A stretch of DNA of 35,314 bases from an uncultured Clostridia bacterium (GTDB lineage: Bacteria; Bacillota; Peptococcia; Peptococcales; Peptococcaceae), in NCBI GenBank assembly GCA_944391625.1, contig CALXUG010000031.1, positions 1 to 35,314 of the forward strand. Direction: 5' to 3'. This document shows positions 275-32,933 of this stretch, in pieces. The translations under genes and the position numbers were made by a program. A model generated the notes under the pieces. It did not search any database, had not been told where the DNA came from, and worked only from the letters and a program-made list of their open reading frames with translations. Every line of letters starts with the position of its first letter. Position 1 is the first letter of the stretch.

Positions 275-1456
275 TTACTCTGCAACAGATTGTTTGAGCG
301 CATCTACTTTGTTCAGCTGTTCCCAGGGCAAATCCAGATCGGTACGGCCAAAATGACCATATGCCGCAACCTGTTTATAAATCGGACGGCGCAGATCCAG
401 TTCACGGATAATGCCCGCCGGACGCAAATCAAAATTATCCCGCACAGCTTTTACAATTTTTTCTTCCGGCACTTTATTGGTACCGAAGGTATCCACCAAA
501 ATAGACACCGGATAGGCAACACCAATGGCATAGGCCAGCTGCACTTCACAGCGGTCAGCCAAACCGGCTGCTACAATATTTTTGGCAACATAGCGGGCTG
601 CATATGCGCCGGAACGGTCCACTTTTGTGCAGTCCTTACCGGAAAAAGCGCCGCCGCCATGGCGCGCCATACCGCCATAGGTATCTACAATGATTTTACG
701 GCCGGTTAAGCCGGTATCACCCTGCGGACCGCCAATAACAAAACGGCCTGTCGGATTGATAAAATATTTAGTATTTTCATCAAGGAATTGGGCCGGAATC
801 ACCGGTTTGATGACTTTCTCAATCACATCGTGACGAATCTGTTCCAGAGAAGCTTCTCCTTTATGCTGTGTAGAAACCACCACTGCATCTACACGAACCG
901 GCTTATCATTTTCATATTCCACAGTAACCTGTGATTTACCATCCGGCAGCAGATATGGAATCTCTCCGTTTTTCCGCATAGCTGTCAGCTGACGGGTCAA
1001 ACCGTGCGCCAGATAAACAGGCAATGGCATGTAGCTGTCGGTTTCATTGGTTGCATAACCAAACATCATGCCCTGGTCCCCGGCGCCGATAGCGTCAGCT
1101 TCGTCAATCTCACCATTTTTAGCTTCCAGCGCTTTATCAACGCCCATGGCAATATCAGGAGACTGCTCGTCAATAGAAGTCAGCACCGCACTTGTATTGC
1201 AGTCAAAGCCATAGGTTGCATTGGTGTAACCGATTTCCTTGATGGTTTCACGAACAATCTTAGGCATATCTACATAACAGCTTGTACTAATTTCGCCTGC
1301 AATCAGAGCCATCCCTGTTGTCAGGAAGGTTTCACATGCTACACGGGCCATTGGGTCTTTTGCCACAATAGCGTCCAAAATGGCATCGGAAATCTGGTCA
1401 GCCATTTTGTCAGGATGTCCTTCTGTTACTGATTCAGAAGTGAATAATTTACGCAT
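275..1456 (-). CDS. metK: S-adenosylmethionine synthetase
   Basis: This enzyme makes S-adenosylmethionine from methionine and ATP in the cytosol. The 393-residue product has the usual family length and motifs: the N-terminal [13 protein letters not shown] stretch that binds methionine and [15 protein letters not shown] near residue 115, and the glycine-rich [16 protein letters not shown] loop near residue 265. The start is the ATG at 1456, preceded by AAGGAG at 9 nt; a TTG nine bases upstream lies between this site and the ATG and is unlikely. No SAM riboswitch is visible in the short gap to coaBC, so metK may be read through from the upstream series. A clear terminator follows. Confidence 0.97.
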
Positions 1457-1533
1457 TTTCCACAACTCCTTGAGTAAAAATATCTTGTTTTATTTTATTT
1501 TTGTTCTGTTTTATTCTTAATTGTTTCTATTGT

Positions 1534-2745
1534 TTATTTTCTGTCTGTTTCACCATTCCGCATTTGATATACCTGCAATACCTGATCTAGAATTTTATCA
1601 GCAACCTGCTCCTTGCTCAAAACCGGCAAGGGAGTCACACTGCCGTCAGCGCTGTACAGAACAATGCGGTTGGTATCCTTGCCAAACCCGCTGTGCTGTT
1701 CGGTAAGATCATTGGCTGCGATAAAGTCTACCTGTTTTTGTTTTAACTTCCGCATTGCATTTTGCTGTATATCATTGGTTTCCGCAGCAAAGCCCACCAG
1801 GATCTGCTTTTCTTTATGGGCGCCCAGCCATGCTAAAATATCCGGATTGCGCTCCAATTCCAATACCATATCCCCGTCGGATTTTTTGATTTTCTGCGCA
1901 GCTGCATGCTTGGGCCGATAATCAGCCACTGCTGCTGATTTAATCACCACATCGGCGGCAGAAAACTGCTGCTGCACAGCTGCAAACATATCCTGCGCCG
2001 ACACAACAGGCACAAACGCAACACCGGAAGGCACCATCTGGGCAGAAGGCCCGCTGATTAACACAACCTCCGCACCCCGGTTGACAGCCTGCCGTGCAAG
2101 GGCATAACCCATCTTTCCGCTGCTGTGATTGGTAATGTACCGCACCGGATCAATTACCTCACAGGTAGGGCCAGCTGTTACCACAATGCGCAGCCCCTGC
2201 AGATCCTGCTGCCGCAATCGACCGGTTACAGCAGCAATCTGCACAGGCTCCGCCATTCTACCCTTTCCCGATGTGCCGCAGGCCAGCTGACCTTCCTCAG
2301 GCTCTATCATATGATATCCTGCCTCTTTGAGCATAGCCATATTGCGCTGCACCAAAGCATTGGCATACATCTGATCATTCATGGCCGGTGCAAAATAAAC
2401 CGGAGCAGCAGTAGCCAGCACACAGGTAGACAATAAATCATCCGCCAGTCCCTGCGCTACTTTCCCGATAAAGTTTGCTGTCGCCGGTGCAATCAAAAAA
2501 CAATCAGCCCATCGCGCCAGCCCGATATGCTCTACCTGCCACTGCGGATTCTCCTGCAGCGCAAACATATCACAATATACCGGATTGCCCGACAGCGTCT
2601 GCAGCGTCAGCGGTGTAATAAACCGCTGCGCATGCTCTGTCATAATGCAGCGAACCTCATGCCCCTGTTTTACCAGCAACCGAACCAGCTCTGCCGACTT
2701 ATATGCCGCAATACCGCCGGTAACACCTAAAATAATATTGGCCAT
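1534..2745 (-). CDS. coaBC: bifunctional phosphopantothenoylcysteine decarboxylase / phosphopantothenate-cysteine ligase
   Basis: CoaBC catalyses two consecutive steps of coenzyme A synthesis: ligation of cysteine to 4'-phosphopantothenate, then FMN-dependent decarboxylation to phosphopantetheine. The N-terminal CoaC flavoprotein domain (about residues 1-180) starts with ILGVTGGIAAYKS and contains APAMNDQMY, the conserved Asn-bearing substrate motif. The C-terminal CoaB domain (about 185-395) contains VTAGPTCEVIDPVRYITN and ITNHSSGKMG, and the later AANDL motif. At 403 residues it has the normal fused length. A GGGGAGA ribosome site sits 7 nt before the ATG. It follows rpoZ by 36 bp, an order typical of Firmicutes (gmk-rpoZ-coaBC). 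The usual next gene, priA, is absent and metK takes its place. Confidence 0.97.
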   Translation of the reverse strand: MANIILGVTGGIAAYKSAELVRLLVKQGHEVRCIMTEHAQRFITPLTLQTLSGNPVYCDMFALQENPQWQVEHIGLARWADCFLIAPATANFIGKVAQGLADDLLSTCVLATAAPVYFAPAMNDQMYANALVQRNMAMLKEAGYHMIEPEEGQLACGTSGKGRMAEPVQIAAVTGRLRQQDLQGLRIVVTAGPTCEVIDPVRYITNHSSGKMGYALARQAVNRGAEVVLISGPSAQMVPSGVAFVPVVSAQDMFAAVQQQFSAADVVIKSAAVADYRPKHAAAQKIKKSDGDMVLELERNPDILAWLGAHKEKQILVGFAAETNDIQQNAMRKLKQKQVDFIAANDLTEQHSGFGKDTNRIVLYSADGSVTPLPVLSKEQVADKILDQVLQVYQMRNGETDRK

Positions 2746-2781
2746 TGTGCTTTCTCCCCATAATCTCCCTGCTAAAAGAGC

Positions 2782-2988
2782 TTATTTAATGCCTTCTGTC
2801 GTTTGCTCATAAGTAATTTTATTTTCACCAATTTCCTGCAAAGCCATTGTCACCGGTTTTTTTGCACCGCCGGTATTCAACGCTTCCGAACCGTCCACAA
2901 TTTCTCTGGCCCGTTTTGCAGCAGCGCAAACCAAAGAATATTTACTGTCAGCCTTTGTTAATAATTCATCAATTGTTGGTTCTACCAT
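2782..2988 (-). CDS. rpoZ: DNA-directed RNA polymerase omega subunit
   Basis: Omega helps assemble RNA polymerase by chaperoning the beta' subunit. The 68-residue product begins MVEPTIDELLTKADSKYSLV and contains the family hallmark AAKRAREI, followed by the short acidic and Lys-rich helix region that ends in KKPVTMALQEI. I place the start at 2988 because GGAGG lies exactly 8 nt upstream. A longer frame starting at 3003 would put its own ATG inside this ribosome site. It sits between gmk and coaBC as in many Firmicutes, with a 63-bp gap to gmk. Confidence 0.93.
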   Translation of the reverse strand: MVEPTIDELLTKADSKYSLVCAAAKRAREIVDGSEALNTGGAKKPVTMALQEIGENKITYEQTTEGIK

Positions 2989-3051
2989 ACTAAAAACCTC
3001 CATACCTATTGATCTTCTGTTTTTTATTGCTCACTTTTTCATTACTTAGTA

Positions 3052-3663
3052 TTACTTACTTGATGCGTCATCGCAATTGCGCCAGCTGCGGCATTTTTCT
3101 GCCACCAGAATGGCCTTCAATTTATTGGCAGCAGCGGCCACATCATCATTGACGATCACATAATCATATTTACTTCTCTGCTCCAGTTCTTCCAGCGCAC
3201 AACTCAAACGTTTTTCCATTTCTTCCGCCGATTCCGTTCCTCTGCCGGACAGACGGCTGCGCAGTTCCTCCAAAGAAGGCGGCGCAATAAAAATCAAAAT
3301 TGCTTCCGGCCAAGCTGCCCGCACCTGAAAAGCACCCTGCGGGTCTATCTCCAAAATGCAATCATTGCCCCGTTCCAGCACTTCTTCTACATATTGCCGC
3401 GGTGTACCGTAATAATTGTCGTACACCTGGGCCCATTCCAAAAATCCTCCCTGCTCCCGCAGCTGTTCAAAGGTTTCTTTGTCATAGAAAAAGTATTCCC
3501 GTCCGTGTACCTCTCCATTCCGCGGATTTCTGGTCGTAGCAGAAATGGAATATTCTATCGAAACATCTTCACTGTTGCGGACAGCCGCACACACAGTGCC
3601 CTTTCCTGTACCGGAAGGACCGGACAACACAATCAGAAGCCCTTTCTGTTTCTTCTGTTCCAT
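3052..3663 (-). CDS. gmk: guanylate kinase
   Basis: This enzyme phosphorylates GMP (and dGMP) to GDP with ATP. The P-loop GPSGTGKGT lies at about residues 16-24. The GMP-binding region follows with SATTRNPRNGEVHGREYFF, including the conserved Arg and Tyr residues, and the lid region contains RLSGRGTES. At 203 residues it has the standard length. The ribosome site GAGGGAG precedes the ATG by about 5 nt. It is 26 bp downstream of remA and upstream of rpoZ. This yicC-remA-gmk-rpoZ order is well conserved in the phylum, which strengthens all four calls. Confidence 0.96.
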   Translation of the reverse strand: MEQKKQKGLLIVLSGPSGTGKGTVCAAVRNSEDVSIEYSISATTRNPRNGEVHGREYFFYDKETFEQLREQGGFLEWAQVYDNYYGTPRQYVEEVLERGNDCILEIDPQGAFQVRAAWPEAILIFIAPPSLEELRSRLSGRGTESAEEMEKRLSCALEELEQRSKYDYVIVNDDVAAAANKLKAILVAEKCRSWRNCDDASSK

Positions 3664-3689
3664 ATGGTCTCCCTCTCATTATTTCTATT

Positions 3690-3929
3690 CTACTCCGGAT
3701 TTAACCTGCCGACTAATGTTTCCGGCTGAATTGCCGACAATATAATATAGGCGCTGTCGGTAAAAATCACCGATCTGGTTTTTCGGCCATGGGTAACGTC
3801 AATGACCGTTCCTGCTTCCTTCGCCTCCTGTATCTGCCGTTTAATCGGCGCACTTTCCGGCGACACCACCGCTATTATTTTTTGCACCTGCACCATATTG
3901 TCAAATCCAACATTCATAAATGCATCCAT
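3690..3929 (-). CDS. remA: RemA-family DNA-binding regulator (DUF370)
   Basis: The 79-residue protein matches the RemA/DUF370 family; the hallmark [17 protein letters not shown] is at about residues 19-35, followed by [17 protein letters not shown] and the C-terminal [10 protein letters not shown]. In Bacillus subtilis RemA is a small DNA-binding activator of biofilm matrix genes; its targets here are unknown. The start has AAAGGGGG about 7 nt upstream. A second in-frame ATG (four codons later) is possible, but it is less well placed. It lies between yicC (21 bp) and gmk (26 bp), the conserved genomic position of this family. Confidence 0.9.
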
Positions 3930-3950
3930 CAGATTCCCCCTTTCAGGAGA

Positions 3951-4829
3951 TTATTCGATGTTCTGTACCTGCTCTCTCAGCTTTTCCAGCTCACTTTTCA
4001 TTTCTACTACCAAACGGCCTGTTTCCAAATCATTGGCTTTAGAACCAATGGTGTTGGTTTCCCGGTTCATTTCCTGAATCAAAAAATCCAGCTTACGGCC
4101 AATGCTATTATTTTGCGCTGCAATCTGATAAAACTGTTCAAAATGGCTCTGCAGCCGCACCAGTTCTTCATCAATACAGCTTTTCTCCGCAAAATAGGCA
4201 ACTTCCTGGGCCAGCCGTTCCTGATCCACTGCTGTGCTGTTCAGCAACTCAGCAATGCGATCTTCCAGCTTTTCTTTATATTCAGCCAACAACAACGGAC
4301 TGCGGGTTTCTATTTGGGCGGTCAGCGTTTTCAATCCGGCAATTTTTTCTATCATATTTTGCTGAATATGAGCGCCTTCCTGCTCCCGCATGGCAATATG
4401 CTGCTCCATTGCCTGCCGCAATACCTGCTCCATCAACGGCCAGATTTCCTGCATATCCAATTCTTCCTCTTCTTTGCAGATAACATCCGGCAGCGTCACC
4501 AGCCGATAAGGATCCGGCTTGTAAACTGCACCGGGAATCAATGCTGCCAGCTGCGCCATCGCCTGATGGTACGCCAACGCACGCTGCTGATCAACCTGCA
4601 CCGGCTTGGCCGCCTCGGTCATCTCCTGGGTGCGCACAAACACATCCACCTTGCCCCGTTCAATATACCCGTTGATCACTTTTTTCATTTTATCTTCCAG
4701 CGCCAGAAACTGTCTGGGCTGTTTGATGGTAATTTCACTATACCGATGATTGACAGCCTTTACTTCGACTACAATACGCAGCGCGCCATTATCGCCTTCG
4801 CCTCGTCCATATCCTGTCATACTTCTCAT
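3951..4829 (-). CDS. yicC: YicC family endoribonuclease
   Basis: The product begins MRSMTGYGRGE, the diagnostic YicC N-terminus, followed by VEVKAVNHRYSEI. The C-terminal part contains the DUF1732 signature (FLIQEMNRETNTIGSKAND, about residues 245-263). Family members, including E. coli YicC and Bacillus YloC, are reported endoribonucleases. The long Glu/Gln-rich helical middle (about 85-240) is typical. At 292 residues it is of normal length. GGAGG precedes the ATG by about 10 nt. It is the first gene of the conserved yicC-remA-gmk-rpoZ block. A 373-residue open frame on the opposite strand covers this gene and is only a shadow. Confidence 0.93.
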   Translation of the reverse strand: MRSMTGYGRGEGDNGALRIVVEVKAVNHRYSEITIKQPRQFLALEDKMKKVINGYIERGKVDVFVRTQEMTEAAKPVQVDQQRALAYHQAMAQLAALIPGAVYKPDPYRLVTLPDVICKEEEELDMQEIWPLMEQVLRQAMEQHIAMREQEGAHIQQNMIEKIAGLKTLTAQIETRSPLLLAEYKEKLEDRIAELLNSTAVDQERLAQEVAYFAEKSCIDEELVRLQSHFEQFYQIAAQNNSIGRKLDFLIQEMNRETNTIGSKANDLETGRLVVEMKSELEKLREQVQNIE

Positions 4830-4893
4830 TGTTCTCAGGCCTCCAGAAAAATTCTACCTTATATTGTAACCGATTCATGTTTAAAAAGAAAGC

Positions 4894-6861
4894 TTATCTT
4901 TTCTTTTTAGACTTTCTTTTTTGTTTTTCTTCTTGCTTACGCTTATCCATGTTTCCTGCTTTTCCCTGCGGATATTGTTTGGACTTTCCCTTGCTCGGAG
5001 CGGCAGCCTTTTTACCCGCACCCGGTTTTCTGCGCTCCCTGCTGTCGGCTTCCGCCCGCTTACCTTTGCCGGGCCGAATCAGGCAGTTGGGGCCAAAACC
5101 AATCAAATCTTCCCGTCCGGCCTTCACCAGCGCTTCGTACACCAACTCGTAGTTTTTAGGGTTGCGGTACTGCATCAGCGCTCGCTGCATGGCTTTTTCG
5201 TGAGGATCGCGGGGCACATACACCGGCTCCATGGTGCGGGGATCATAACCGCTGTAATACATAGCGGTGGCCATACTGCCGGGCGTAGGAATAAAGTCCT
5301 GCACCTGCTCCGGATTATAGCCAATATCACGAATATACTCTGCCAAAATAACCGCATCCTGCAAGGTACAGCCGGGATGGCTGGACATAAAATAAGGCAC
5401 CAGATACTGTTCCTTGCCCACCCGCTTGTTATAATCAAAATATCGTTTCACAAAACCGTCAAACACTTTGCGCTGCGGTTTTCCCATATAATACAGCGCA
5501 TTGGGCGCCACATGCTCCGGCGCTACCTTCAGCAGACCGCTGATATGGAACTGGCACATTTCATCAAAAAAGGTAGGATCGGGATCTGCCATAATATAAT
5601 CAAACCGGACGCCGGAGCGGATAAATACCTTTTTTACTTTTTCCAAATTCCGGACTGTGCGCAAAATGTCCAGATATTCTTTATGATCCACAATCAGATT
5701 GGGGCAAATGTCAGGAAACAGACACTGCCGTTCCTTGCAGGCGCCCACCTTCATCTGTTTCTTGCAGGACATATTGCGGAAATTGCCCGTCGGGCCTCCC
5801 ACATCATGGATATAGCCCTTAAAATTAGGCAGCCTGGTCATTAATGCAGCTTCTTCCACAATAGACTCCTTGCTGCGGTTTTGGATAATCCGGCCCTGAT
5901 GAAAATTAATGGCGCAGAAGGTACATCCGCCAAAGCAGCCTCTGTGATCGGTGATGCTGAACTCCACTTCCTGCAGCGCAGGAATGCCGCCTGCTTTTTC
6001 GTAGCGGGGATGATAGGTGCGCTGAAAAGGCAGCTGATAGATGGCGTCCATTTCTTTTTGCTCCAGCGGTTTGGCCGGCGGCATTTGAATCAGATACCGG
6101 TCTCCGTGGGGCTGCACCAAAATCTTGCCCAAAAACGGATTCTGTTCCCGGTTTTGAATGGCAAAAGCTTCCGCAAATTTCTTTTTGTCCCTGCCCACTT
6201 CCTCAAAGCTGGGCAAAACTATATAGTCTCCCTTTTGGGGCAAGGTATCGCTCCAATAACAAGTACCCTGCACATTGCGCATTTTATGCAAAGGCCATCC
6301 CTTGGCAAACCCATGACTCAAATATTGCAGCTGATGCTCGCTCATACCGTACATCAGCAAATCGGCGCCGGATGTCTGCATAATAGACGGACGCACATTG
6401 TCCTCCCAGTAATCATAATGGGCAAACCGGCGCAGACTGGCCTCCACACCGCCAATCATCAAAGGCACATCAGGATAAGCCTGCCGCACCAGCTGACAAT
6501 ACACATCAACAGCCCTGTCCGGCCGCAGCCCTTTTTGCCCGCCCGGCGAATAGGCATCGCTGCTGCGGGGCTTCTTAGCTGCAGTATAATGATTAACCAT
6601 GGAATCAATATTGCCGCTGCCCACCAAAAAGGCATACCGGGGACAGCCAAAGGTTTTCATACTTTCACAGCGGGTCACATCGGGCTGGGCAATGATACCC
6701 ACCCGAAACCCTTCCCGTTCCAGTAAACGGGCAATCAACGCCGTTCCAAAACTGGGATGGTCCACATAAGCATCTCCTGATACCACTACAAAATCCAGTT
6801 CATCCCATCCTCTGCTGCGGGCCTCTTTCATATTTACCGGTAAAAAAAGATGTTCATGCAT
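4894..6861 (-). CDS. ygiQ: YgiQ family radical SAM protein
   Basis: This is a 655-residue member of the YgiQ/UPF0313 radical SAM family, whose reaction is not established. The N-terminus ([20 protein letters not shown]) and the following B12-binding-like region are family-typical. The CX3CX2C cluster motif appears as [12 protein letters not shown] at about residues 311-322. The DUF3362 C-terminal domain ends near residue 610 and is followed by a very basic low-complexity tail rich in Lys, Ala and Gly (about 45 residues). The gene starts 4 nt after glcD stops, with its GGAG site inside the end of glcD, so it is probably cotranslated or at least cotranscribed with the glc genes. No functional link between the two is known to me. 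Confidence 0.93.
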
Positions 6862-6865
6862 GATT

Positions 6866-8260
6866 TCACTCCAATTCCTGTTCTATAAAAATTTTACCCG
6901 GATTCAAAATACCGGCTGGATCCAATCCATCCTTTACAGCCTTCTGCGCTTTATAACCGGCAGGCCCTAACTCCTGCAGCACATAGGGTGCCTTCATAAA
7001 CCCAATGCCGTGCTCGCCGGACAATGTGCCGCCCAAAGCCAGCGCATTGCTGAACAATTCGCCGATGGCTGCTTCCACCCGTTCCATTTCCTCTGCATTT
7101 CGCTTATCGGTCATAATATTGGGATGCAGATTGCCGTCACCGGCATGACCAAATACCACCATGTTCAACTGATATTTACGGGCAATCTCTTTGACTGCCT
7201 GAATCATGGCCGGTATGGCAGCAGGCGGCACCGCAATATCCTCGCCGATTTTGGTAGGATTGATTTTGCCGCAGGCGCCGGAAATAGACTTGCGCGCTTT
7301 CCACAAAGCAGTCCGTTCTGCTTCTGTATGGGCAACTTCAATTTTCACAGCGCCATTGTCCCGACAGATGGCGATAATCTGCTCCAGCTGCTGCTCTACC
7401 TCCCACAGCTCGCCATCCACTTCCAGCAGCACAAAGGCTTCTTTGGTGGTATCCAGACCAATCTGCAAAAAGTTTTCTACGGCAGCAATGGTCATCTGAT
7501 CCATAATTTCAATGGTAGTCGGCACAATCCCGGCGCTGATAATGGCGCTGACTGTCTGCGCTGCATCGCCCAAGTGATCATATTGGGCCAGCGCCGTTTT
7601 GATAGCCTGCGGTTTGGGCAGCAGCCGCACCGTAATTTTTGTGATAATGGCTAAAGTGCCTTCCGATCCGGTAAACAACATGGGCAAATCCAGCCATCCG
7701 GTCAACCCGTCTACCACATTGCCCACCGTGACAATTTCTCCGTCGGCCAAAACCAGCTCCAAGGCCAGCACATAATCCCGGGTAACGCCGTATTTTACCC
7801 CTCTGCCGCCGCCGGCGCACTCCGCCACATTGCCGCCCAGCGTGCTCATTCCGCTGCTGGACGGATCCGGCGGATAAAACAAGCCCTGCTTGGCAGCCTC
7901 GGCAATCAAAGTATTGGTGATGACACCCGGTTCTACCACCGCATACTGCTCATCGGCATTCAGTTCCACAATACGCCGAAACGCTGTCATTTCCAGCAAA
8001 ATACCGCCCTGCAGCGCCACCGGACCACCGGACAGACAAGTGCCCGCGCCCCGCGCCGTCAACGGCACATGATGGGCAGCGGCAATTTTCACCACTGCAG
8101 CCACTTCCTTAGCCGTATGCGGCTTGACAACCACCTCCGGCTTATGCTCCTGAAAAGTGCTGTCAAAGGAATACACCATCAGCTTTTCTTCTGCATTGCT
8201 GACATATTGGGAACCCACAGCGGCTTTCAGTTCTTCTAACACTGCTGCTGTTATTGTCAT
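6866..8260 (-). CDS. glcD: FAD-linked 2-hydroxyacid oxidase subunit, GlcD type
   Basis: This 464-residue flavoprotein of the vanillyl-alcohol-oxidase fold would oxidise glycolate or a related 2-hydroxyacid such as lactate; the substrate cannot be read from sequence. The FAD-binding domain contains [13 protein letters not shown] and later [10 protein letters not shown]. The C-terminal FAD-oxidase domain contains [12 protein letters not shown] and [13 protein letters not shown]. The start is the ATG at 8260, with GGGAGGTG 7 nt upstream; the longer frame to 8389 lies inside glcF and lacks support. Start and glcF stop share ATGA (4-bp overlap), indicating translational coupling. The order here is E-F-D, not the D-E-F order of E. 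coli. Confidence 0.92.
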
Positions 8261-9561
8261 GGCTGCACCTCCCTGTTCTGCTGATGCAGCCCGTAACTCT
8301 CTGCCAGCAATTCTACAATATGCTTTGTTTCCACTGCAATGCCATCCTGCGCCAGTCCATCTTTGATATGCATCAGACAGGCCGGACATCCCACTGCTAC
8401 CACATCAGCGCTGGTCTGGGCAATATGCTCCGTTTTTTGCTGATTAATCTGGCGGGACAGCTGATAATATTTCAAATTAAAAGAACCGCCCGACCCGCAG
8501 CAGCCATCCGCCTTTTCCATTTCAAGATAGGTGCTTGCCGGAATGGCCTGCAAAACCTGCCGCGGCTGCTTGTTGATTTTCTGTCCCCGGTTTAAATGAC
8601 AGGAATCGTGATAGGTGATTTTCAGCGGCAAAGGCTGCATCTGCTCGGTATTCAGACCGATCATCATCAAAAATTCACTAATATCTCTGGTTTTCTTACC
8701 CAATTCTACCGCAAGGGCATAATCGGGATGATCTTCGCCCAACACATGGGGAAACTCCTGTTTCCATGCCAATCCGCAGGAGCCGCAGCCGGTAATGATG
8801 TAATCCACGTCCAGCTTGCCAAACGCCTCCAGGTTACGATGGATTAAGTCTGAGGCAATTTCCGTTTCGCCGGAAGTAAACAGCGGCGTTCCGCAGCAAT
8901 GCTGTTCTTTTGGGGTAACCACTGTAACACCGTGCAGATTTAATACGCCGATTAAATCCTGACCAATCTGCGGATACACATAATTCAACATACAGCCGGT
9001 AAAAAACGCCACCCGATACCGCTGTTCCCCTTTGGCAGCGGCAGTCAGCGGCACCATCTTTTTCAGATGCTTTTTGGGCAGATTGGGAATAATCCGACGC
9101 TGATTAAAACCGGCCATAGGCAGCGGCACCCGCGCCACCTGTCCATGCCCATCGGCAGCCGGTTTAAAAATCAGCCGCTGAAACAGCGAACCGCAGGTTA
9201 AGCCAAAATCAAAAAATTTTCTCCAGTGCAATGCTCGGAAAATAGACTGCTTGGTAAAGGATAATCCCCGTTCTTTGACAATTTCCTCCCGCATCTCCAA
9301 AAAAATCTGGTAGGTATTCACACCGGACGGGCAATTGGCAGTGCAAGCCTTGCACATAACACACTTGCTGAGCATTTCTACAAAACCATCGGTCAATAAA
9401 AAATCCCCATGGATAAACTTATCCACAATATGCAATTTGCCTCTGGCAGTATAGGATTCATCATCCAACACCTGATGAATGGGGCAAAATTGCCGACAGG
9501 TACCGCAGCGGATACATTTGGATAGTTCCCGCTCCCACCGTTCTATTTTACTTTGTTCCAT
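8257..9561 (-). CDS. glcF: Fe-S subunit of 2-hydroxyacid oxidase, GlcF type
   Basis: This 434-residue iron-sulfur protein would pass electrons from the GlcD/GlcE flavins to an acceptor. Two [4Fe-4S] motifs of type CX2CX2CX3CP lie near the N-terminus: CIRCGTCRQFCP (about 16-27) and CVMCKACTANCP (about 67-78). Two cysteine-rich CCG domains follow, with FFTGCMLNYVYP plus EQHCCGTPLF, and YHDSCHLNRGQ plus ADGCCGSGGSF. These bind a further Fe-S centre in related HdrB/GlcF proteins. No membrane segment is obvious. AGGAGG precedes the ATG by about 9 nt. It overlaps glcE by 14 bp and glcD by 4 bp, so the three genes clearly form one operon. Confidence 0.92.
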   Translation of the reverse strand: MEQSKIERWERELSKCIRCGTCRQFCPIHQVLDDESYTARGKLHIVDKFIHGDFLLTDGFVEMLSKCVMCKACTANCPSGVNTYQIFLEMREEIVKERGLSFTKQSIFRALHWRKFFDFGLTCGSLFQRLIFKPAADGHGQVARVPLPMAGFNQRRIIPNLPKKHLKKMVPLTAAAKGEQRYRVAFFTGCMLNYVYPQIGQDLIGVLNLHGVTVVTPKEQHCCGTPLFTSGETEIASDLIHRNLEAFGKLDVDYIITGCGSCGLAWKQEFPHVLGEDHPDYALAVELGKKTRDISEFLMMIGLNTEQMQPLPLKITYHDSCHLNRGQKINKQPRQVLQAIPASTYLEMEKADGCCGSGGSFNLKYYQLSRQINQQKTEHIAQTSADVVAVGCPACLMHIKDGLAQDGIAVETKHIVELLAESYGLHQQNREVQP

Positions 9562-10675
9562 GGAATCCGCCTCCTGTTTCCCGACAATTCAGCCGCTGTC
9601 CGCCGTCAAACTGCTGTTTTAAACTGCGCCACAATCGAGTTTCTGTTTCCGGCGCAAATCCGTAACCATCCATATAATACCAATTACCGGCACCACCCAA
9701 AGCCACAGCCTGATCATACAGCTGCTTGTACAGCTCTGCTGTCCCCTGCGGCGGAATCAATTGCAGGCTGCCCTGCATAGGATTATACCAGCAGCCAATC
9801 TGCTGTTCCTCCAAAGCCGTCAGCAGAGCAGGGCATTGCAGCGACGGCACCTTTAACCCATCCTGCCACACGGTATGGCTGCGCAGCGCAGCAATCGCCT
9901 GCCATATTTGCTCCGGCTGCTCGCAAACCTGCAGACCAATCTGCAGCCCATCGGCAATCTGGCTGAGCATTTGCAATTCTCGTTCCAACCGCTGCTTGCT
10001 GCCTGTACAAACCAGAATCAGTTTTCCTTGCTGCTCCGGCCGCTGCAGCAGCACAGAAGCTGCTTGATTCCAATATAAGCACACCTGCGGCACAATGCGC
10101 TGCCGGCGCAAAGCTTTGACCCAATCGCACAAAATTTCTGCATGGGGCAAATCAGCTTCCAGCATCAGCTGCATAGGCTCCGGCGATACCAGCTTGATAG
10201 TAAACACCAGCGGAATGGCAAACTGTTCCCGATTGCTGATATAAAACCGACACATGTCATAACCGGTAACATTTTTTACTGTCTTACCGGCCACAGACAG
10301 CAGTGTACCGTCAGCCAGCATCACTTCCAGGCCCAACACCTGAAACCGCGGCTGACTGTGATGCAAACTGGTAAGACAAAACATCTGCTCCGCAAAAAAA
10401 TCACCAATGCTGACATGGCGCAAATCCTCTGTCACAGCGGCCATATGCAGCCCCTGCGCCTGCACCGCATCCTCCAGTTCACCCAAGGTTACAGCCCGTT
10501 CCACTGTAACGGTCAAATTCATCAAATCTATTTCCCGAATTTTATTCCAATTCTGAAAATCTATATGAAAACCAGAGCCCTGCCGGCCCCTGGTCATAAC
10601 AGAAACGCCCTGCTTCTCTGCCTGCTGCAGCAGAGTCTGCAGTTCCTGCACGCCATAAGGCTTATACGTTGTCAT
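9548..10675 (-). CDS. glcE: FAD-binding subunit of 2-hydroxyacid oxidase, GlcE type
   Basis: This is a 375-residue FAD-binding-4 protein resembling GlcE. It has an FAD region with GQGSGFHIDF replaced by the local form RGRQGSGFHID, the segment IDLMNLTVTVERAVTLGELE typical of the PCMH fold, and AGKTVKNVTGYDMCRFYIS, a strong GlcE hallmark. The C-terminal half is divergent and rich in Gln and Leu. The ATG at 10675 has a G-rich ribosome site 7 nt upstream; a GTG directly before it is an alternative start. It is the first gene of the glcE-glcF-glcD set. The GlcD/E/F proteins form one membrane-associated complex in characterised bacteria. Confidence 0.85.
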   Translation of the reverse strand: MTTYKPYGVQELQTLLQQAEKQGVSVMTRGRQGSGFHIDFQNWNKIREIDLMNLTVTVERAVTLGELEDAVQAQGLHMAAVTEDLRHVSIGDFFAEQMFCLTSLHHSQPRFQVLGLEVMLADGTLLSVAGKTVKNVTGYDMCRFYISNREQFAIPLVFTIKLVSPEPMQLMLEADLPHAEILCDWVKALRRQRIVPQVCLYWNQAASVLLQRPEQQGKLILVCTGSKQRLERELQMLSQIADGLQIGLQVCEQPEQIWQAIAALRSHTVWQDGLKVPSLQCPALLTALEEQQIGCWYNPMQGSLQLIPPQGTAELYKQLYDQAVALGGAGNWYYMDGYGFAPETETRLWRSLKQQFDGGQRLNCRETGGGFHGTK

Positions 10676-10732
10676 CACAACGCCCCCAATATTGTTAAAA
10701 TGTATGGATCCTATCTTTATTCATGACTTATT

Positions 10733-11617: not shown

Positions 11618-12427
11618 TTATAACGCCGCCATTAAATTTTTTATATTGGAATTCACTTCTAAATCAACATGAATACGCTGATCTTGCCAGGACACCTGCA
11701 CCGGATAATCCAAAAACGCCGATAAATTTTCCGACGAAAATAAGTCCCTGGTCTGCCCGTTGGCATAAATGGTGCCATTTTGCAGCAGCAGACAATGAGA
11801 GAACACATCTAAAATTTCCTCTGTATGATGGGTCACAAAAATAATGGTGCTGTCGGTATCCTGGGCCAGATCCCGCACGGTACTGAGCAAATACTCCCGC
11901 GAAAAAACATCTAACCCGGTACACGGTTCGTCCAGTATCAAAATTTCCGGATTTGTCATCAATGCCCGGGCAATCAGCACATTTTGCCGCTCCCCTTTGG
12001 ACAGAAAATCAAAGGGATAATTGGTCTTTTTGCCCAGCCGCAGCTCATGCAGCAGCCCTTTGGCCCGGCGCACATCCTGATCGGTGATATCATAATCCAG
12101 CCCCAGCGTGCCAAACTTCCCTGCCAACACAATGTCCAGCACACTTTCCCGAAAGATGTGCTTATCGTAAAAGGAACCGCTCACCCAGCCAATGCGGCGG
12201 CGAATATCTAAAATATTCTCATCTGTATAATGCTCACCCAGAATAGTCATATCACCATGGGTATAATCCATAAATCCCGCTGCAATACTGAGCAGCGTGG
12301 TTTTGCCGCTACCGTTCATGCCAAAAACTGCCCAATGCTCCCCTTTTTTTACCTGCCAGTCAATATCTTTTAAAATATAGCGATTTCCTGATTTAAATCC
12401 AAGCCCCTGCATTTCTAAAACATTCAT
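11618..12427 (-). CDS. ABC transporter ATP-binding protein
   Basis: This is a 269-residue single nucleotide-binding domain. Walker A is GMNGSGKTT (about residues 36-44), the signature is FLSKGERQNVLIARAL (LSKGE in place of the usual LSGGQ), Walker B is ILILDEPCTGLD, and the switch His is in FVTHHTEEIL. The motif and length resemble ModF/YlmA-type stand-alone ATPases (inference). No permease or substrate-binding protein gene is adjacent, so the partner is encoded elsewhere or the protein has a non-transport role. It follows the zinc-ribbon gene by 24 bp and shares its promoter. The last 50 residues form a small beta-rich extension of unknown use. Confidence 0.88.
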   Translation of the reverse strand: MNVLEMQGLGFKSGNRYILKDIDWQVKKGEHWAVFGMNGSGKTTLLSIAAGFMDYTHGDMTILGEHYTDENILDIRRRIGWVSGSFYDKHIFRESVLDIVLAGKFGTLGLDYDITDQDVRRAKGLLHELRLGKKTNYPFDFLSKGERQNVLIARALMTNPEILILDEPCTGLDVFSREYLLSTVRDLAQDTDSTIIFVTHHTEEILDVFSHCLLLQNGTIYANGQTRDLFSSENLSAFLDYPVQVSWQDQRIHVDLEVNSNIKNLMAAL

Positions 12428-12451
12428 AACGATGATCGCTCCCTTCCAAAC

Positions 12452-12820
12452 TTATTCTTCATCATCAGGAGGAAGCTGCAGCTCAATATTAAACCCTTTT
12501 TTGGTCATAATGCCCCAATATTTAGCGCCCCAGCTCATAATTTCGCAAACCTTGGCAATGTTCAGCATGTAGGTACGTTCATTTTCTTCCAAATCTACAA
12601 AGTGATTAAACCCGGTGCTGTCCACAAAGGTTTTGGCTGCTTTATACACAGCAGGTTCCGTACCATATTCAATTTTTCGGCATTCGGGACAGTACAATTC
12701 TGTGCCCGATCCGCCATACTTATTATACACGATCATACGAAGTTCCAGAGGACCGCCGCACTGCTTGCAAACACAATGCTCAGAACGATACAGCAAATCC
12801 TCCATCCGATTTCTTTTCAT
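12452..12820 (-). CDS. hypothetical zinc-ribbon protein
   Basis: I do not recognise this 122-residue protein. It has an N-terminal zinc ribbon with CKQCGG (about residues 18-23) and CPECRK (about 44-49), probably binding one zinc ion. The middle contains a helical region ending in KVCEIMSWGAKYWGIMTKKG, followed by an acidic C-terminus (PPDDEE). There is no signal peptide or membrane segment, so it should be cytosolic. It is the first gene of a two-gene operon with the ABC ATPase, 24 bp apart, and its promoter faces the lysR promoter. The association with an orphan ABC ATPase suggests a shared role, which is not determined. Confidence 0.75.
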   Translation of the reverse strand: MKRNRMEDLLYRSEHCVCKQCGGPLELRMIVYNKYGGSGTELYCPECRKIEYGTEPAVYKAAKTFVDSTGFNHFVDLEENERTYMLNIAKVCEIMSWGAKYWGIMTKKGFNIELQLPPDDEE

Positions 12821-23661: not shown

Positions 23662-24852
23662 TTAATAATATTCATTGATATAGGTGGATTTAAGCGGCCA
23701 AAGCTGCTCTAAAAGCTGCAATGCTGAATCATTTTCCACCTGCAGCAAATCCTGCCGCTGCAGCTGCCCGGCACTGCGAGTGCCCATCACCAATTGGCTT
23801 AACCCCTCAATGGTAATTGCCACATGGTGAACTTCCGGCATGTTCTCAGCTTCTACAATCTGCACCTTAGCGGTTCCCCCATCAAGACACAACAAAAAGC
23901 TATGATGATTCCATGAGGCAAAGCAATCGCTTACGGATAATATGAGCTGAGCCTGTAGCATTGGATAGGAAAGCTGCTCCAAACATTGGGCCACATCCAC
24001 AATCCGCGCCATCAAAAAGGGATAAAGCCGCACTGCATCTTTCACCGCAGCCAGCTGATACACCAACGCATCATCCTGCGGCAGCTCCAGCCACAGCTGA
24101 TGCTGCTCTGGCATCACATCCTGAAGAAACCACAATAACCCGGCTTTCGCCTGTTCCTGTATCCATGCCATTTCACGAATAAATATTTTCCCTTTTAACG
24201 GTGTCCACAGGCAATATCCCTGCGCCGCACCGTCTTTTTCCAGCAAAAAGCACTGGGTATTTTCCAGCGCTGCATCTTCCAACAATAAGCGCCATTGCTG
24301 CGCTGTCCGAATCACGGCGCCATGATACGGTGCTGCAAACCGGGCATAAATATCTGCCAGCTGCGCCTGCGCTTCAAATAAATCTATTTGCTTTATGGTT
24401 CCCCATTCTCTGGCAACACAGCGCAGCTCCTGCGGCTGCAATAATAACCGCTGATGAAAATAACAAAAAGACCAGCCATACCGATAATAAAACTGACCCT
24501 CAAAAGGCATCAGCAAACTGATTGGCTGTTTTCTGCGCCGCTGCTCCTCTAAACAAGCCAGCAATAATTTTTTGGCATAGCCCTTATGTCTGGCTTGCGG
24601 CGCAGTGTCTACTCCAACAATATAGGCACAATCCAGCTGGCTGTCCCGCACGCCAATGGTATACGGAATCATCTGCGCCGATGCCAGCAATGCGGCATCA
24701 TCAAAAATCCCCAAGGTATGCTCAGCCCGATAATATCTGGAAAAATACCATTGCACAAAAGATGGAGTGTCATCAAAGCACTGCTGCCACAACGCCTGCA
24801 CCTGCTGCAAATCTTTTGCTGTTGCCGGTCGGCAGAGAATTGTATCAGCCAT
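23662..24852 (-). CDS. Eis-like GNAT N-acetyltransferase
   Basis: This is a 396-residue protein with two tandem GNAT-type regions and a C-terminal sterol-carrier-like domain, as in the Eis family. The acetyl-CoA motif is VGVDTAPQARHKGYAKKLL (about residues 79-97, with R/QxxGxG/A-type residues), followed by LLMPFEGQFYYRYGWSF, an Eis-type signature. Eis proteins in mycobacteria acetylate aminoglycosides and proteins; most homologues in Firmicutes have no assigned substrate. The start has AAAGGGG 7 nt upstream and overlaps the upstream DUF2156 gene by 8 bp, so the two are translated together. The sequence is unusually rich in Gln and Leu. Confidence 0.87.
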   Translation of the reverse strand: MADTILCRPATAKDLQQVQALWQQCFDDTPSFVQWYFSRYYRAEHTLGIFDDAALLASAQMIPYTIGVRDSQLDCAYIVGVDTAPQARHKGYAKKLLLACLEEQRRRKQPISLLMPFEGQFYYRYGWSFCYFHQRLLLQPQELRCVAREWGTIKQIDLFEAQAQLADIYARFAAPYHGAVIRTAQQWRLLLEDAALENTQCFLLEKDGAAQGYCLWTPLKGKIFIREMAWIQEQAKAGLLWFLQDVMPEQHQLWLELPQDDALVYQLAAVKDAVRLYPFLMARIVDVAQCLEQLSYPMLQAQLILSVSDCFASWNHHSFLLCLDGGTAKVQIVEAENMPEVHHVAITIEGLSQLVMGTRSAGQLQRQDLLQVENDSALQLLEQLWPLKSTYINEYY

Positions 24853-25753
24853 GATAAACCCCTTTATATTTTTTTACCAAATCAACAGGATAATAGGACA
24901 GTTTGGCTTTGCGCAATCCTTCATCACCGGTATCTTCTTCTCGATTGACAAAAGCGACATCCGGCCACTGGTGCAGCAAAAATTCCTGATTAATGGCACC
25001 ATACAATCCGTTAATCATTCCATTGGCCTTTTCCACATGAATGACTACCGTATCCTGATTGATTTTTTCACCCATAGTAAATGCTTCAATCTGACCATTG
25101 ATACGAATGACTGCGCCGATAAAATCTAACTGGTCAAAATAATCCAGCGCTTCCCGAATGGCTTTTTTTTCGCAAATCAGCCCATCGCTGAAATTTCCGC
25201 TGCAAGCCTTCTGTTTGCACCATAACTCGATATATTGCCAAACTTCCTCCCGCATATCCGCAGTCATCACTTCATAACGATAGTCGGGATAATTTTTACG
25301 GAAATTACTCAAATGATTGCGTTTACTGTGATATTTGCGCCCTTTTAATTGCCGCAAATCCTCGCCGCTGTACAAATAATCTTCCAGATCCCGTTCTTCC
25401 TCCAGTGTAAACATACCGGGACATGTTTCCTCCAACACTTTGACAAAGGATTCAGTGACTGCCCGCAGCACCAATGGTTTTCCCAATGCAGAAAAATAAT
25501 CTTTTAACTGCAGCAGAACGGATTTCAAATCACTTTTTTTATAATCGCCGTAGGGCGGCAGAATCCAGCTATCATCACTCTGTCCCGGTTTAATTACCAG
25601 CAGACCGTCTAATATGGTCCATTGTACAGCGTAGCAATCTCTCCATATAAACAGATTGGTAAAGGTACATTCTGAATTATTGTACTGCCCTTTTTCAAAA
25701 TAGGCATCAATCATTTTCTTATCTTCTAATGTTAAGTTATGAAATTCTATCAT
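24845..25753 (-). CDS. DUF2156 protein (phosphatidylglycerol lysyltransferase C-domain-like)
   Basis: This is a 302-residue soluble protein of the DUF2156 family, a GNAT-like fold related to the catalytic domain of MprF-type aminoacyl-lipid transferases. Typical segments are CTFTNLFIWRDCYAVQW near the N-terminus, KGRKYHSKRNHLSNFRKNYP (about 135-155) and FVNREEDTGDEGLRKAKLSY near the C-terminus. No membrane segments are present, unlike MprF. The start at 25753 is chosen because a TATAAT box lies so close upstream that the longer frame's ATG at 25768 would be at the transcription start; a GGGTGAG site fits the downstream ATG. It overlaps the Eis-like gene. Confidence 0.85.
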   Translation of the reverse strand: MIEFHNLTLEDKKMIDAYFEKGQYNNSECTFTNLFIWRDCYAVQWTILDGLLVIKPGQSDDSWILPPYGDYKKSDLKSVLLQLKDYFSALGKPLVLRAVTESFVKVLEETCPGMFTLEEERDLEDYLYSGEDLRQLKGRKYHSKRNHLSNFRKNYPDYRYEVMTADMREEVWQYIELWCKQKACSGNFSDGLICEKKAIREALDYFDQLDFIGAVIRINGQIEAFTMGEKINQDTVVIHVEKANGMINGLYGAINQEFLLHQWPDVAFVNREEDTGDEGLRKAKLSYYPVDLVKKYKGVYHG

Positions 25754-25772
25754 TGTTTTCTCACCCATCTAC

Positions 25773-25855: not shown

Positions 25856-25884
25856 TTTCCTTTTTTTTATTCTCATTGTATGAT
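25856..25884 (+). promoter_or_regulatory. candidate promoter of the multi-cluster ferredoxin gene
   Basis: TTTCCT and TATGAT are spaced 17 bp on the plus strand, 26 bp before the start codon. The promoter is divergent from that of the DUF2156 operon. Confidence 0.45.
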
Positions 25885-25910
25885 AAAAGAAAAAAAGGAT
25901 GTGCATAAAA

Positions 25911-26966
25911 ATGGCGCAAACTCGCTATCAAAAAGCAACTGTACTTTCTATCAATGCTGCCAATTGTTTAAATATCATCAGTCCCGCCGCCGCATGTCAC
26001 ACCTGTCAGGATATCTGTCCGCAGCAGGCACTTAGCTGGCAAAACAATCAATGGCATACAGCAGACTGCACCCTCTGCGGTCTATGTACCAGTGTCTGTC
26101 CTACCCAGGTATTTCAGATCGATCAAAACAATCTGTTTCATCTGAAAACCAACGGCCCGCTTCACTTATGCTGTGCCCAGGACACCGACGCACCTGCAGA
26201 AGCAGTCGCACTCAATTGTCTGCAGCAATTAACGCCGTTACTGCTGATTCATTTGCTGTATCAGACGCAGCAGCAAATCATTCTGCATTTACCGGCAGCC
26301 CAGTGTCAGCAATGCGGACAGCAATGGTATCCGCAAGGACTGCAGCTGCAATTGGAGCAATATCAGCTTCCTTCTGAAAAACTGCAAATTGTTATACAGA
26401 CAGAGCAACCATCAGGTCAAAACGCCGCATCCTCCAATCAGCGCCGTGAGTTCTTGCGCGATATATTTCATCGTACAGAAAGCCATTCCAAAAAGATGAT
26501 CGTGCAAACAGCGGAACAACTTGCTGCTAACTTTGAATCGGTTCAAACACAAAATACAGAGCCGGCTGTCTTTCCTGTACGGCTGCCGCTTTACGCCCTG
26601 TATATCAAAAAGCAGCTGCCCATTTTCCCAGAGCGTACGCTGCCCTTTCATCAGCTCGGCTGCAGCAGCTGTACCTTTTGCGGCGCTTGTGTGCACGTTT
26701 GTCCGACTCAAGCCTTAACGATGCACGAAGATCAACAGGAAAAGCAATTGTTGTATCAGCCGGAGCTTTGCATCAACTGCAATCTTTGTCAGCAGATTTG
26801 TATGAAAAAAGGATTGTATTGGAATGACTTTATGACACAAAAACAATTTTTACAAACACCATGGCAATTGGCACACAGCAGTCAAAAAATTTGCAGCCAG
26901 TGCGGGCATGACTATTACCAATGGCCAGATACAGACCAAACACGCTGTTCCTTCTGCCAAAGGTGA
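25911..26966 (+). CDS. multi-cluster 4Fe-4S ferredoxin-like protein with C-terminal zinc ribbon
   Basis: This is a 351-residue cytosolic iron-sulfur protein with no recognised name. The first half has ACHTCQDICP (Cys 29, 32, 36, with Cys 19 as a probable fourth ligand) and DCTLCGLCTSVCP (Cys 53, 56, 59, 63), a dicluster ferredoxin. The middle has a CC pair (LHLCCAQ) and CQQCG. The second half has CSSCTFCGACVHVCP and CINCNLCQQICM, a second dicluster domain. The C-terminus carries CSQCGHDYYQ and CSFCQR, a rubredoxin/zinc-ribbon-like site. The start at 25911 has AAGGA upstream; a frame four codons longer overlaps that site. No dehydrogenase partner is adjacent, so its electron donor and acceptor are unknown. 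Confidence 0.75.
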   Translation: MAQTRYQKATVLSINAANCLNIISPAAACHTCQDICPQQALSWQNNQWHTADCTLCGLCTSVCPTQVFQIDQNNLFHLKTNGPLHLCCAQDTDAPAEAVALNCLQQLTPLLLIHLLYQTQQQIILHLPAAQCQQCGQQWYPQGLQLQLEQYQLPSEKLQIVIQTEQPSGQNAASSNQRREFLRDIFHRTESHSKKMIVQTAEQLAANFESVQTQNTEPAVFPVRLPLYALYIKKQLPIFPERTLPFHQLGCSSCTFCGACVHVCPTQALTMHEDQQEKQLLYQPELCINCNLCQQICMKKGLYWNDFMTQKQFLQTPWQLAHSSQKICSQCGHDYYQWPDTDQTRCSFCQR

Positions 26967-27054: not shown

Positions 27055-27111
27055 ATAAAAATACCCTCAGGCAGATTTTGTATCATTCAGCTACAAGAAC
27101 CTGCCTGAAGG
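27055..27111 (-). terminator. intrinsic terminator after rlpA
   Basis: CCTCAGGCAG (27065-27074) and CTGCCTGAAGG (27101-27111) pair with one bulge. On the minus strand GTATTTTTATG follows. It lies about 65 bp past the rlpA stop. Confidence 0.6.
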
Positions 27112-27175
27112 CAATCATATCCAAAACGGATATGCAAAAATTCATTATATTTTCGTTTACTGCTTTCTTTATGCT

Positions 27176-31880: not shown

Positions 31881-32933
31881 TTACAGTCTGCCGGCAATTT
31901 CCTGCGCCATTTCCATAGTGCTTACCACTTTACTGGTTTCATCAGCCAAATCCGGTGTTTTAATGTTATCAGCCAGTACCCCATTCACTGCTGCTTCAAT
32001 TGCCCGCGCTGCCGCTTCATTTTTGGCAGAGAACCGCAGCAGCATAGCCGCAGATAAAATGGTCGCGATTGGATTAGCAATGCCCTGACCAGCAATATCC
32101 GGCGCAGAACCATGAGATGGTTCAAACAGACTGATTTTGTCGCCCAGGCTGGCAGATGGCAGCATACCCAAAGAACCGCCCAAAGCCGCTGATTCATCGC
32201 TTAAAATATCGCCAAACATATTTTCTGTCACAATCACATCAAACTGGGTTGGATTTACAATTAGCTGCATCGCTGCGTTATCCACATACAAATGATGCAG
32301 TTCTACCTCTGGATATTCTTGGGCAATTTGGTTGACAACCTTTCTCCACAAACGGGAGCTGTCTAATACATTGGCTTTATCAATGGAATGCAAAATTTTG
32401 CGGTCACGGTTTTTGGCCATTTCAAAGGCATCCCGCACAATGCGTTCAATTTCCGGACGGCTGTAGGAAATGGTGTCATAAGCGCTGTTTTCATCATGTC
32501 CCCGTTCCCCAAAATAGGCACCGCCGGTCAGTTCCCGACAGATAACAATGTCCAGTCCGTCCAGCAGACCTTTTTTCCAAACCACACGGTCAGCCAGAAA
32601 ATCATAATATTTAATGGGACGAATGTTGCAATACAATCCCAAGGATTTGCGAATGGCCAGCAGGCCACTTTCCGGACGCAATGTGCTTGGCTCAATTTTA
32701 TCATATTTGGGCGCACCCACTGCGCCCAGCAGAATGGCATCACAGCCTTCTACAATTTTTTGAGATTCTTCTGGATATGGATTGCCGTATACATCATAAG
32801 CGGAACCGCCGAATAATGCTTCTGCGTACTCAATACCCAGATTAAATTTTTCACTTGCCTTATTTAAAACAACCTGCGCAGCCTCTACAATTTCCGGGCC
32901 GATACCGTCGCCTTTTAACACTGCAATTTTCAT
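31881..32933 (-). CDS. leuB: 3-isopropylmalate dehydrogenase
   Basis: LeuB oxidises and decarboxylates 3-isopropylmalate to 2-ketoisocaproate with NAD+, the third step specific to leucine synthesis. The 350-residue protein begins [16 protein letters not shown]. It has substrate-binding Arg residues in LRPESGLLAIRKSLGLYCNIRP, the catalytic Tyr and Lys regions (SYSRPEIERIVRDAFEMA, SIDKANVLDSSRLWRKV), the metal-binding Asp region (VTENMFGDILSDE) and the NAD motif EPSHGSAPDIAGQGIANP. The start overlaps the leuD stop as ATGA, indicating translational coupling. Confidence 0.97.
   Translation of the reverse strand: MKIAVLKGDGIGPEIVEAAQVVLNKASEKFNLGIEYAEALFGGSAYDVYGNPYPEESQKIVEGCDAILLGAVGAPKYDKIEPSTLRPESGLLAIRKSLGLYCNIRPIKYYDFLADRVVWKKGLLDGLDIVICRELTGGAYFGERGHDENSAYDTISYSRPEIERIVRDAFEMAKNRDRKILHSIDKANVLDSSRLWRKVVNQIAQEYPEVELHHLYVDNAAMQLIVNPTQFDVIVTENMFGDILSDESAALGGSLGMLPSASLGDKISLFEPSHGSAPDIAGQGIANPIATILSAAMLLRFSAKNEAAARAIEAAVNGVLADNIKTPDLADETSKVVSTMEMAQEIAGRL

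Follow-up and report, generated by a model that had tools for sequence, protein, structure and literature searches.

A probable five-cluster ferredoxin family associated with Mo/W enzymes, and its member in an uncultured Peptococcaceae bacterium

Among the known systems closest to the protein considered here are ferredoxins of molybdenum enzyme systems. ArxB2, encoded in the arsenite oxidase cluster (arxB2ABCD), is called a type of ferredoxin, apparently arx-specific and of unclear role, in an excerpt of PMC6549141, and an excerpt of PMC6683785 counts it, as a [4Fe-4S] protein, among the structural genes in the arx cluster. According to an excerpt of PMC4464133, 43% of TorD-fdh operons contain 'hypothetical ferredoxins', and a fer4 gene adjoins DUF3305/DUF3306; an association of such proteins with TorD is thus not new in print. 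HydN and YsaA have been read as alternative beta-subunits or electron routes (excerpt of PMC6004506), a precedent that leans toward electron transfer and not toward maturation. NapF, in turn, is presented as a cytosolic ferredoxin with four tetra-Cys motifs that acts in Mo-enzyme maturation (excerpt of PMC10609526). Outside the molybdenum systems, MvhD binds a [2Fe-2S] cluster (excerpt of PMC12350162).

The window, i.e. the whole stretch of DNA analysed here, is 35,314 nucleotides long and comes from an uncultured Clostridia bacterium of the Peptococcaceae (contig CALXUG010000031.1). The ORF at 25899-26966 (+) is open and encodes 355 aa from an in-frame ATG at 25899. We place the coding sequence at 25911..26966 (+; 351 aa), since a GGA Shine-Dalgarno lies just upstream of 25911 and in most orthologs from the same genus the alignment begins at residue 5 of the 355-aa ORF, and the start chosen in the initial annotation is therefore the better one. 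Residue numbers below are those of the 355-aa ORF, and 4 has to be subtracted for the 351-aa protein. In the genome (G000; 2.97 Mb, 96.2% complete) the gene occurs once at full length, and a weak match at another place covers 31 residues. The protein is genuine and conserved, and non-synonymous change is far below synonymous change in the own-genus orthologs (pN 0.16-0.27 versus pS 0.63-0.84 in four pairs, the higher pS values being saturated). On the 5' side of the start, in the region common to the divergent operon, a promoter-like block, CATTGTATGATAA (25874..25886, +), is conserved in an alignment of six same-family loci and may be a promoter. The scans for promoters and terminators gave results at about chance level (promoter consensus: 4 promoter-like sites, compared with 2.9 ± 1.8 when the sequence was shuffled). 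By eye, an inverted repeat, CCTCAGGCAG / CTGCCTGAAGG (window 27066-27113), is seen between the target gene and the convergent gene, and it is possibly a bidirectional terminator.

The divergent pair encodes an LPG_synthase_C (DUF2156) protein (24845..25768, -; Pfam) and, as its second gene, an Eis-like GNAT acetyltransferase (23662..24852, -; Pfam/NCBIfam); in 6 of 10 same-family loci both genes recur, the first of them next to the homolog. The convergent neighbour encodes a DPBB/Cu-amine-oxidase-N protein, and UbiE is also nearby. The initial statement that no dehydrogenase or hydrogenase lies close to the gene is right for the adjacent genes, but farther off there are a GlcD/GlcF/GlcE-like oxidase set at 6866-10678 (-), 15-19 kb from the target, and LeuB (3-isopropylmalate dehydrogenase) at 31881; the neighbour scan excluded six ORFs of at least 120 aa at 275-4910 and 11618-12820. 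GlcD/GlcF-like genes were also seen by eye near one homolog (L105). No TorD or PF00384-type gene was found in the window and nine same-family loci of 3-18 kb (0/10).

The predicted plan of the protein is 2x[4Fe-4S], an MvhD-like site, an internal RRxFF segment, a further 2x[4Fe-4S] and a C-terminal ribbon, in which the cluster types would follow from the cysteine motifs. Pfam found both dicluster ferredoxin domains that had been recognised at first reading: the first module (25965..26099, +) has C23, C33, C36, C40 and C57, C60, C63, C67, with a C-x9-C spacing in its first motif, and the second (26670..26801, +) has C258, C261, C264, C268 and C291, C294, C297, C301. The double CX2C ribbon (26892..26957, +; C332, C335, C350, C353) is likewise present as described and is probably a zinc site, the metal being a prediction. 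The CC pair and the CX2C site noted between the ferredoxin modules do exist (C91-C92; C136, C139), but they are not separate sites: C92, C107, C136 and C139 are conserved in 61/61 homologs and position 91 is Cys in only 6/61, so the two are parts of one four-Cys site. Invariant as it is, this site probably binds a fifth cluster, likewise of predicted type, and the initial count of four clusters probably falls one site short. Among these 61 aligned homologs (12 from the window's order and 49 from outside), the cysteines of the first ferredoxin module are kept in 60-61, the eight of the second in all and those of the ribbon in 56-58. The 12 same-order orthologs, which are 27-57% identical to the window protein, agree throughout in 36 columns, among them 24 Cys and R182-R183. 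A partial match in one genome (G010, locus L012) was counted in the tallies and excluded from the alignments. We define the family by 24 Cys (five four-Cys Fe-S sites plus the ribbon) together with RR; the window protein has all of these and matches the profile over its full length.

Searches with the whole protein returned ferredoxins of several kinds. Only ferredoxin-type domains were found by Pfam, and Fer4_11 (PF13247, the type of DMSO-reductase beta subunits) was not detected at E up to 0.1. The best 25 of 69 NCBIfam matches listed were sub-threshold and all of ferredoxin type, and the polyferredoxin model VhuB (NF045874) scored 41.4 bits against a curated cut-off of 600 bits. PDB sequences gave polyferredoxins and other ferredoxins, matched through their cluster motifs. 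A structure model of the whole protein, with pLDDT 47.7 and nothing found by Foldseek at E<=0.001, was discarded.

The middle module (26148..26399, +) resembles MvhD/FlpD. PF02662 (FlpD/MvhD) matches 21 of the 61 members, scanned singly, at E<=1 (best 5.3e-7), and no other family is matched by more than two of the 61 middle modules; the module of the window protein itself matches no Pfam family, PF02662 at E<=1 included. A module profile compared with PDB sequences gave two hydrogenase delta (MvhD-type) chains as its best matches, weak ones with E-values of 0.053 and 0.13, followed by five unrelated entries from E 0.4. When the profile was compared by hhalign with an alignment of true MvhD proteins (13 of 30 FlpD loci were used; most of the omitted ones were on the wrong strand or had a stop/TGA at the fixed coordinates, and L146 was excluded as identical to L145), the result was 91.2%, E 1e-6 over 69 columns, versus at most 2.2% in 20 column-shuffled controls. 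In that alignment two of the four cysteines, C107 and C139, coincide with cysteines of MvhD; C136 is not paired with one, and C92 is beyond the aligned region. Many FlpD/MvhD matches were seen to carry one in-frame TGA within the domain, possibly a selenocysteine codon. For the model of the module (pLDDT 78.5), no Foldseek match reached E<=0.001; the lowest E-value belongs to a tyrosyl-tRNA synthetase, and the second entry, 5odc_D (MvhD; E 0.44), has the highest probability shown, 0.66. Structural comparison with VIA placed 8rvu_F, 7bkb_F, 5odc_D and 5odh_D on top with Z of 6.6-7.1, the next being 4.8; these values are below 8, under which a match may be a common arrangement. The four chains come from Mvh-Hdr, Elp-Hdr and Fdh-Hdr complexes, two of them are MvhD itself, and 8rvu_F and 7bkb_F, judged by length and match, would be the MvhD-type chains of theirs. 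From sequence profiles and models we conclude that the middle is probably a divergent MvhD-like module with altered ligands. Its alignment pattern is C, CLG (CLG/CLQ) and CxxC and thus differs from that of MvhD/FlpD, namely CNWC, CSGR (C..R) and GCHPGDCHY, and, unlike MvhD, the module lies fused between two ferredoxins. That the protein belongs to an Hdr/MvhD-type electron-confurcating system, with this module docking to HdrA, would agree with the module itself and with a true MvhD gene in the same genome, but we regard it as very improbable given the foreign ligand pattern and at least one carrier (G002) with no FlpD match; among the neighbouring genes no HdrA was noticed.

Between the middle module and the second ferredoxin lies an internal twin-arginine motif, RREFLRDIF (26442..26468, +), found in the alignments. 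Both arginines are present in 52 of 61 homologs, in which the commonest letters are RREFFRxLF. The motif resembles the Tat consensus; no hydrophobic stretch follows it (best 13-residue hydropathy: mean 0.25, maximum 1.54). The protein is probably cytosolic. In NapF, RR stands near the N-terminus, and NapF is not known to have an MvhD-like module or a ribbon. With rows assigned to classes by ourselves, RR is absent from 4/39 Mo-linked, 4/5 GntR-linked and 1/7 other rows and from 0/10 of the window's family. The rows that adjoin GntR-type regulators and have lost RR are L091, L100, L102 and L105; for L091 the neighbours were confirmed by Pfam as FCD/GntR and an HI0933-like flavoprotein.

The layout had been called uncommon in the initial annotation, a view that does not hold, as at least 58 of 398 sampled genomes of the phylum carry a full-length match at E<=1e-20; 58 is a lower bound because only five candidates per genome were scored. 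A match is present in 11 of the 13 genomes of the window's family (one of them the partial match) and in all six of good quality, and in 13 of 21 genomes of the order; among 46 genomes of the class the same 13 are the only carriers at E<=1e-15. Absences from MAGs may be assembly gaps. Two weak matches (L128 and L129; E 1e-8 and 1e-4) were not counted as homologs. Two genomes, G083 and G123, have four family matches each, and one of those in G123 is partial with two stops. The closest named records of the protein are from uncultured Peptococcaceae MAGs, mostly of ruminant guts. The window protein gave no tblastn match to plasmids, and 62 plasmid records hold a relative when a more distant member serves as query. 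In our searches of the open-licence PMC literature we found no description of the five-site architecture or of the MvhD-like module, which is no proof of absence in print.

Outside the order the gene has clear partners. There were 61 matches, of which 50 were fetched and 11 left out by hand; one (L101) gave no usable ORF, and 49 loci remained, mostly of about 19 kb and in some cases truncated where a contig ends. ORFs were called greedily by length, and clusters of neighbours were named by Pfam from one or two representatives each (DmsB-like meaning Fer4_11). TorD occurs in 28 of these loci, a PF00384-type gene in 27, a DmsB-like gene in 26 and NrfD in 12, together with MoeA (11), MobA (8), MobB (7), MoaA (6) and TatC-like (12) and TatA-like (9) genes. 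At least one of TorD, PF00384, MoeA, MobA, MobB, NrfD, MoaA and a MoCF-like gene is present in 36/49. In two more (L081 and L106), AOR, an Fe-S subunit and FdhD genes stand beside the homolog. In the remaining 11, the stretch read shows no gene for a Mo/W enzyme, TorD or Moco synthesis; two of them have a TatC-like gene. Moreover, TorD is found in 48/58 carriers versus 30/340 non-carrier genomes of the phylum; Fisher's test on this ignores relatedness, and the TorD-positive carriers span 25 of the 27 carrier family codes. The family is not generally required, because 30 phylum genomes have TorD without a family match. Co-occurrence with molybdopterin oxidoreductases or maturation genes, named at the outset as a check, thus came out positive, and there is good support for a link of the family to Mo/W enzymes and to the assembly of these enzymes.

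All seven named proteobacterial records that were read, drawn from the 62 plasmid records and covering six Rhodobacterales, Rhodocyclales or Nitrosomonadales genera beyond repeats, have a molybdopterin oxidoreductase or Fdh alpha gene and TorD within 6 kb of the gene. Among five named proteins that were aligned, the Azoarcus and Rhodobacter relatives keep all 24 Cys and RR, those of Sulfuricella and Cereibacter keep 23/24 and 20/24 Cys, respectively, and RR, and that of Sagittula keeps 20/24, is without the middle four-Cys site and shows RA in place of RR. The gene order is arx-like in Sulfuricella denitrificans (family profile E 1.5e-59) and Cereibacter azotoformans (1.7e-40): binding protein, kinase and regulator; then the relative, a Mo oxidoreductase, a 4Fe-4S protein, NrfD and TorD. 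As two named records show this order, ArxB2 is probably a member of the family. The window gene, unlike arxB2, stands in no Mo cluster, and ArxB2 proper was rejected as an identity for its product, in view of the lack of an arx cluster and of TorD and PF00384-type genes in the ten loci. In Sagittula, Alloyangia and Pseudosulfitobacter the relative occupies the fer4-DUF3305/DUF3306 arrangement of TorD-Fdh operons; those ferredoxins, unlike the window protein, are annotated with about 650 aa and an N-terminal extension. Membership in NapF (TIGR00402) was rejected as well: three of five C-terminal halves scored 21.6, 20.6 and 24.6 bits against a cut-off of 102.2, and the model is absent among the best 25 matches listed for the window's C-terminal half. 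TIGR00402 matches 12/12 members at E<=0.01 (best 6.2e-10), as many other ferredoxin models do, and there is no nap cluster around the window gene. Of the observation named at the outset as a refutation, a full-length match to a known electron-transfer subunit with an assigned partner, one half is seen: full-length matches are encoded with identified enzymes, but we found no established role for these matches.

In the window's own family the picture is different. PF00384 at E<=1e-10 is found in 0/13 genomes, and a TorD-family gene in G003 only, which rules out a persisting TorD partner; G003 has this gene without PF00384, AOR, Mo-hydroxylase or MoaA matches. By eye, the TorD-family gene (G003:C18:8298-8978, locus L120) adjoins ScpA/ScpB- and peptidase-like genes. 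The initial claim that the protein has no partner therefore stands for the window's neighbourhood and, as to PF00384, for the family, but not for the relatives, whose gene partners are TorD, molybdopterin oxidoreductases, Moco biosynthesis and Tat genes, and AOR with FdhD. MoaA occurs in G004 and in five genomes of the window's own genus, G000 among them; no match was found in three incomplete own-genus genomes or in G001, G002, G003 and G012. These last four, representing four genera by one genome each (98-100% complete for the first three, 87% for G012), also have no AOR or Mo-hydroxylase (PF02738) match, and all carry the protein. G000 has two AOR genes, one of which, by eye, adjoins tungstate-transporter- and MoeA-like genes and not the target gene, and one Mo-hydroxylase gene. 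In its own genus the protein could serve tungsten aldehyde:ferredoxin oxidoreductases, and in the four sister genera, in which no Mo/W gene was found, it must serve something else. In a quick tree with SH-aLRT support and a midpoint root, the ten family members form one clade (96), nested in a clade of 14 (100) with G016, G013, G091 and G129, all of which have PF00384-type genes. Since the family nests among PF00384-bearing members, partner loss is the simpler reading, under a midpoint root only; and as PF00384 is found in 0/13 genomes and TorD in only one, the role in the window's family may have changed.

There are also hints, from two genomes only, of a second, non-Mo association. In G013 and G016 three genes of the same strand precede the homolog, a Prismane/HCP-type one, a ferredoxin-type one and a small one, and in the window's order the protein may go with hybrid cluster protein. 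In G016, genes for MobB, MoeA, TorD and a PF00384-type protein lie less than 8 kb from the homolog, and none of these four was found in the 20 kb stretch of G013. At L024:10601-13374 (-) and L025:7946-10733 (+), from two genera, the Prismane/HCP-type gene upstream of the homolog was seen to encode 435-440 aa, with an Fe-S protein of 244-245 aa and, by eye, a small protein that resembles its C-terminal part. In addition, the genome of G013 (4.5 Mb, same order) gave, over many contigs, 11 matches to PF00384 and 27 to AFOR_N (tungsten aldehyde oxidoreductase), the latter including fragments. The HCP-type neighbours would suit a general protein of Fe-S/redox homeostasis (carrier, repair or stress), for which Mo-enzyme assembly is one use, and so would the retention of every ligand in genera where no Mo/W gene was matched and the GntR-linked rows, around which the stretch read shows no Mo genes. 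We nevertheless consider this quite unlikely, given the strong linkage to TorD and Mo genes elsewhere and the fact that the GntR-linked rows have mostly lost RR, which the window's family has not.

Considering these data together, we propose, with about an even chance of being right, that the protein is an accessory redox and maturation factor for Mo/W-pterin enzymes, from a widespread, probably cytosolic family of five-cluster ferredoxins that is ArxB2-like by gene order. One electron wire would run through both 2[4Fe-4S] modules and the MvhD-like module, the internal RRxFF segment and the ribbon might bind a TorD-type chaperone or the apo-enzyme, and the docked protein could then provide the electrons, or the Fe-S cluster, required during insertion of cofactor and clusters. 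RR is kept in the window's family though TorD occurs in one genome only, which argues against docking to TorD alone. Gene linkage by itself does not tell maturation from electron transfer in the working enzyme. A soluble carrier of electrons to or from working Mo/W enzymes (in its own genus the tungsten AOR), with no part in assembly, would account for the many Fe-S sites, for the two AOR genes and MoaA in the same genome and for the two relatives that adjoin AOR, an Fe-S subunit and FdhD; it is rather unlikely in our judgement, however, as 9 of the 36 Mo-linked loci show genes for chaperones, Moco synthesis or other associated functions but no PF00384-type catalytic subunit in the stretch read (some stretches being short), four genera of the family have the protein without AOR, MoaA, PF00384 or PF02738 matches, and the DmsB-like Fer4_11 signature is missing. 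We thus tentatively prefer maturation over electron transfer in the catalytic cycle because of these nine loci and the NapF precedent.

The finding is useful rather than startling: the protein is a member of a widespread family that has a clear gene partner elsewhere and none here. Through gene order, ArxB2 would join the ferredoxins that stand beside TorD, Fdh, DMSO-reductase-type and AOR enzymes, now with a defined five-site architecture, and the question of ArxB2 would become a general and testable one of how Mo/W enzymes are assembled or served. The main point of interest is the retention of the protein without a Mo/W partner in the window's family. It is possible, though doubtful, that a maturation ferredoxin has outlived the molybdoenzymes in these gut Peptococcaceae with all its ligands and RR kept. 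If so, its primary function would be independent of Mo, that of a general device for Fe-S or electron delivery with an MvhD-like core, upon which Mo enzymes elsewhere, arsenite oxidase included, would have drawn; and the lineages that have the protein and in which no Mo/W enzyme was found would be natural controls for its basic function.
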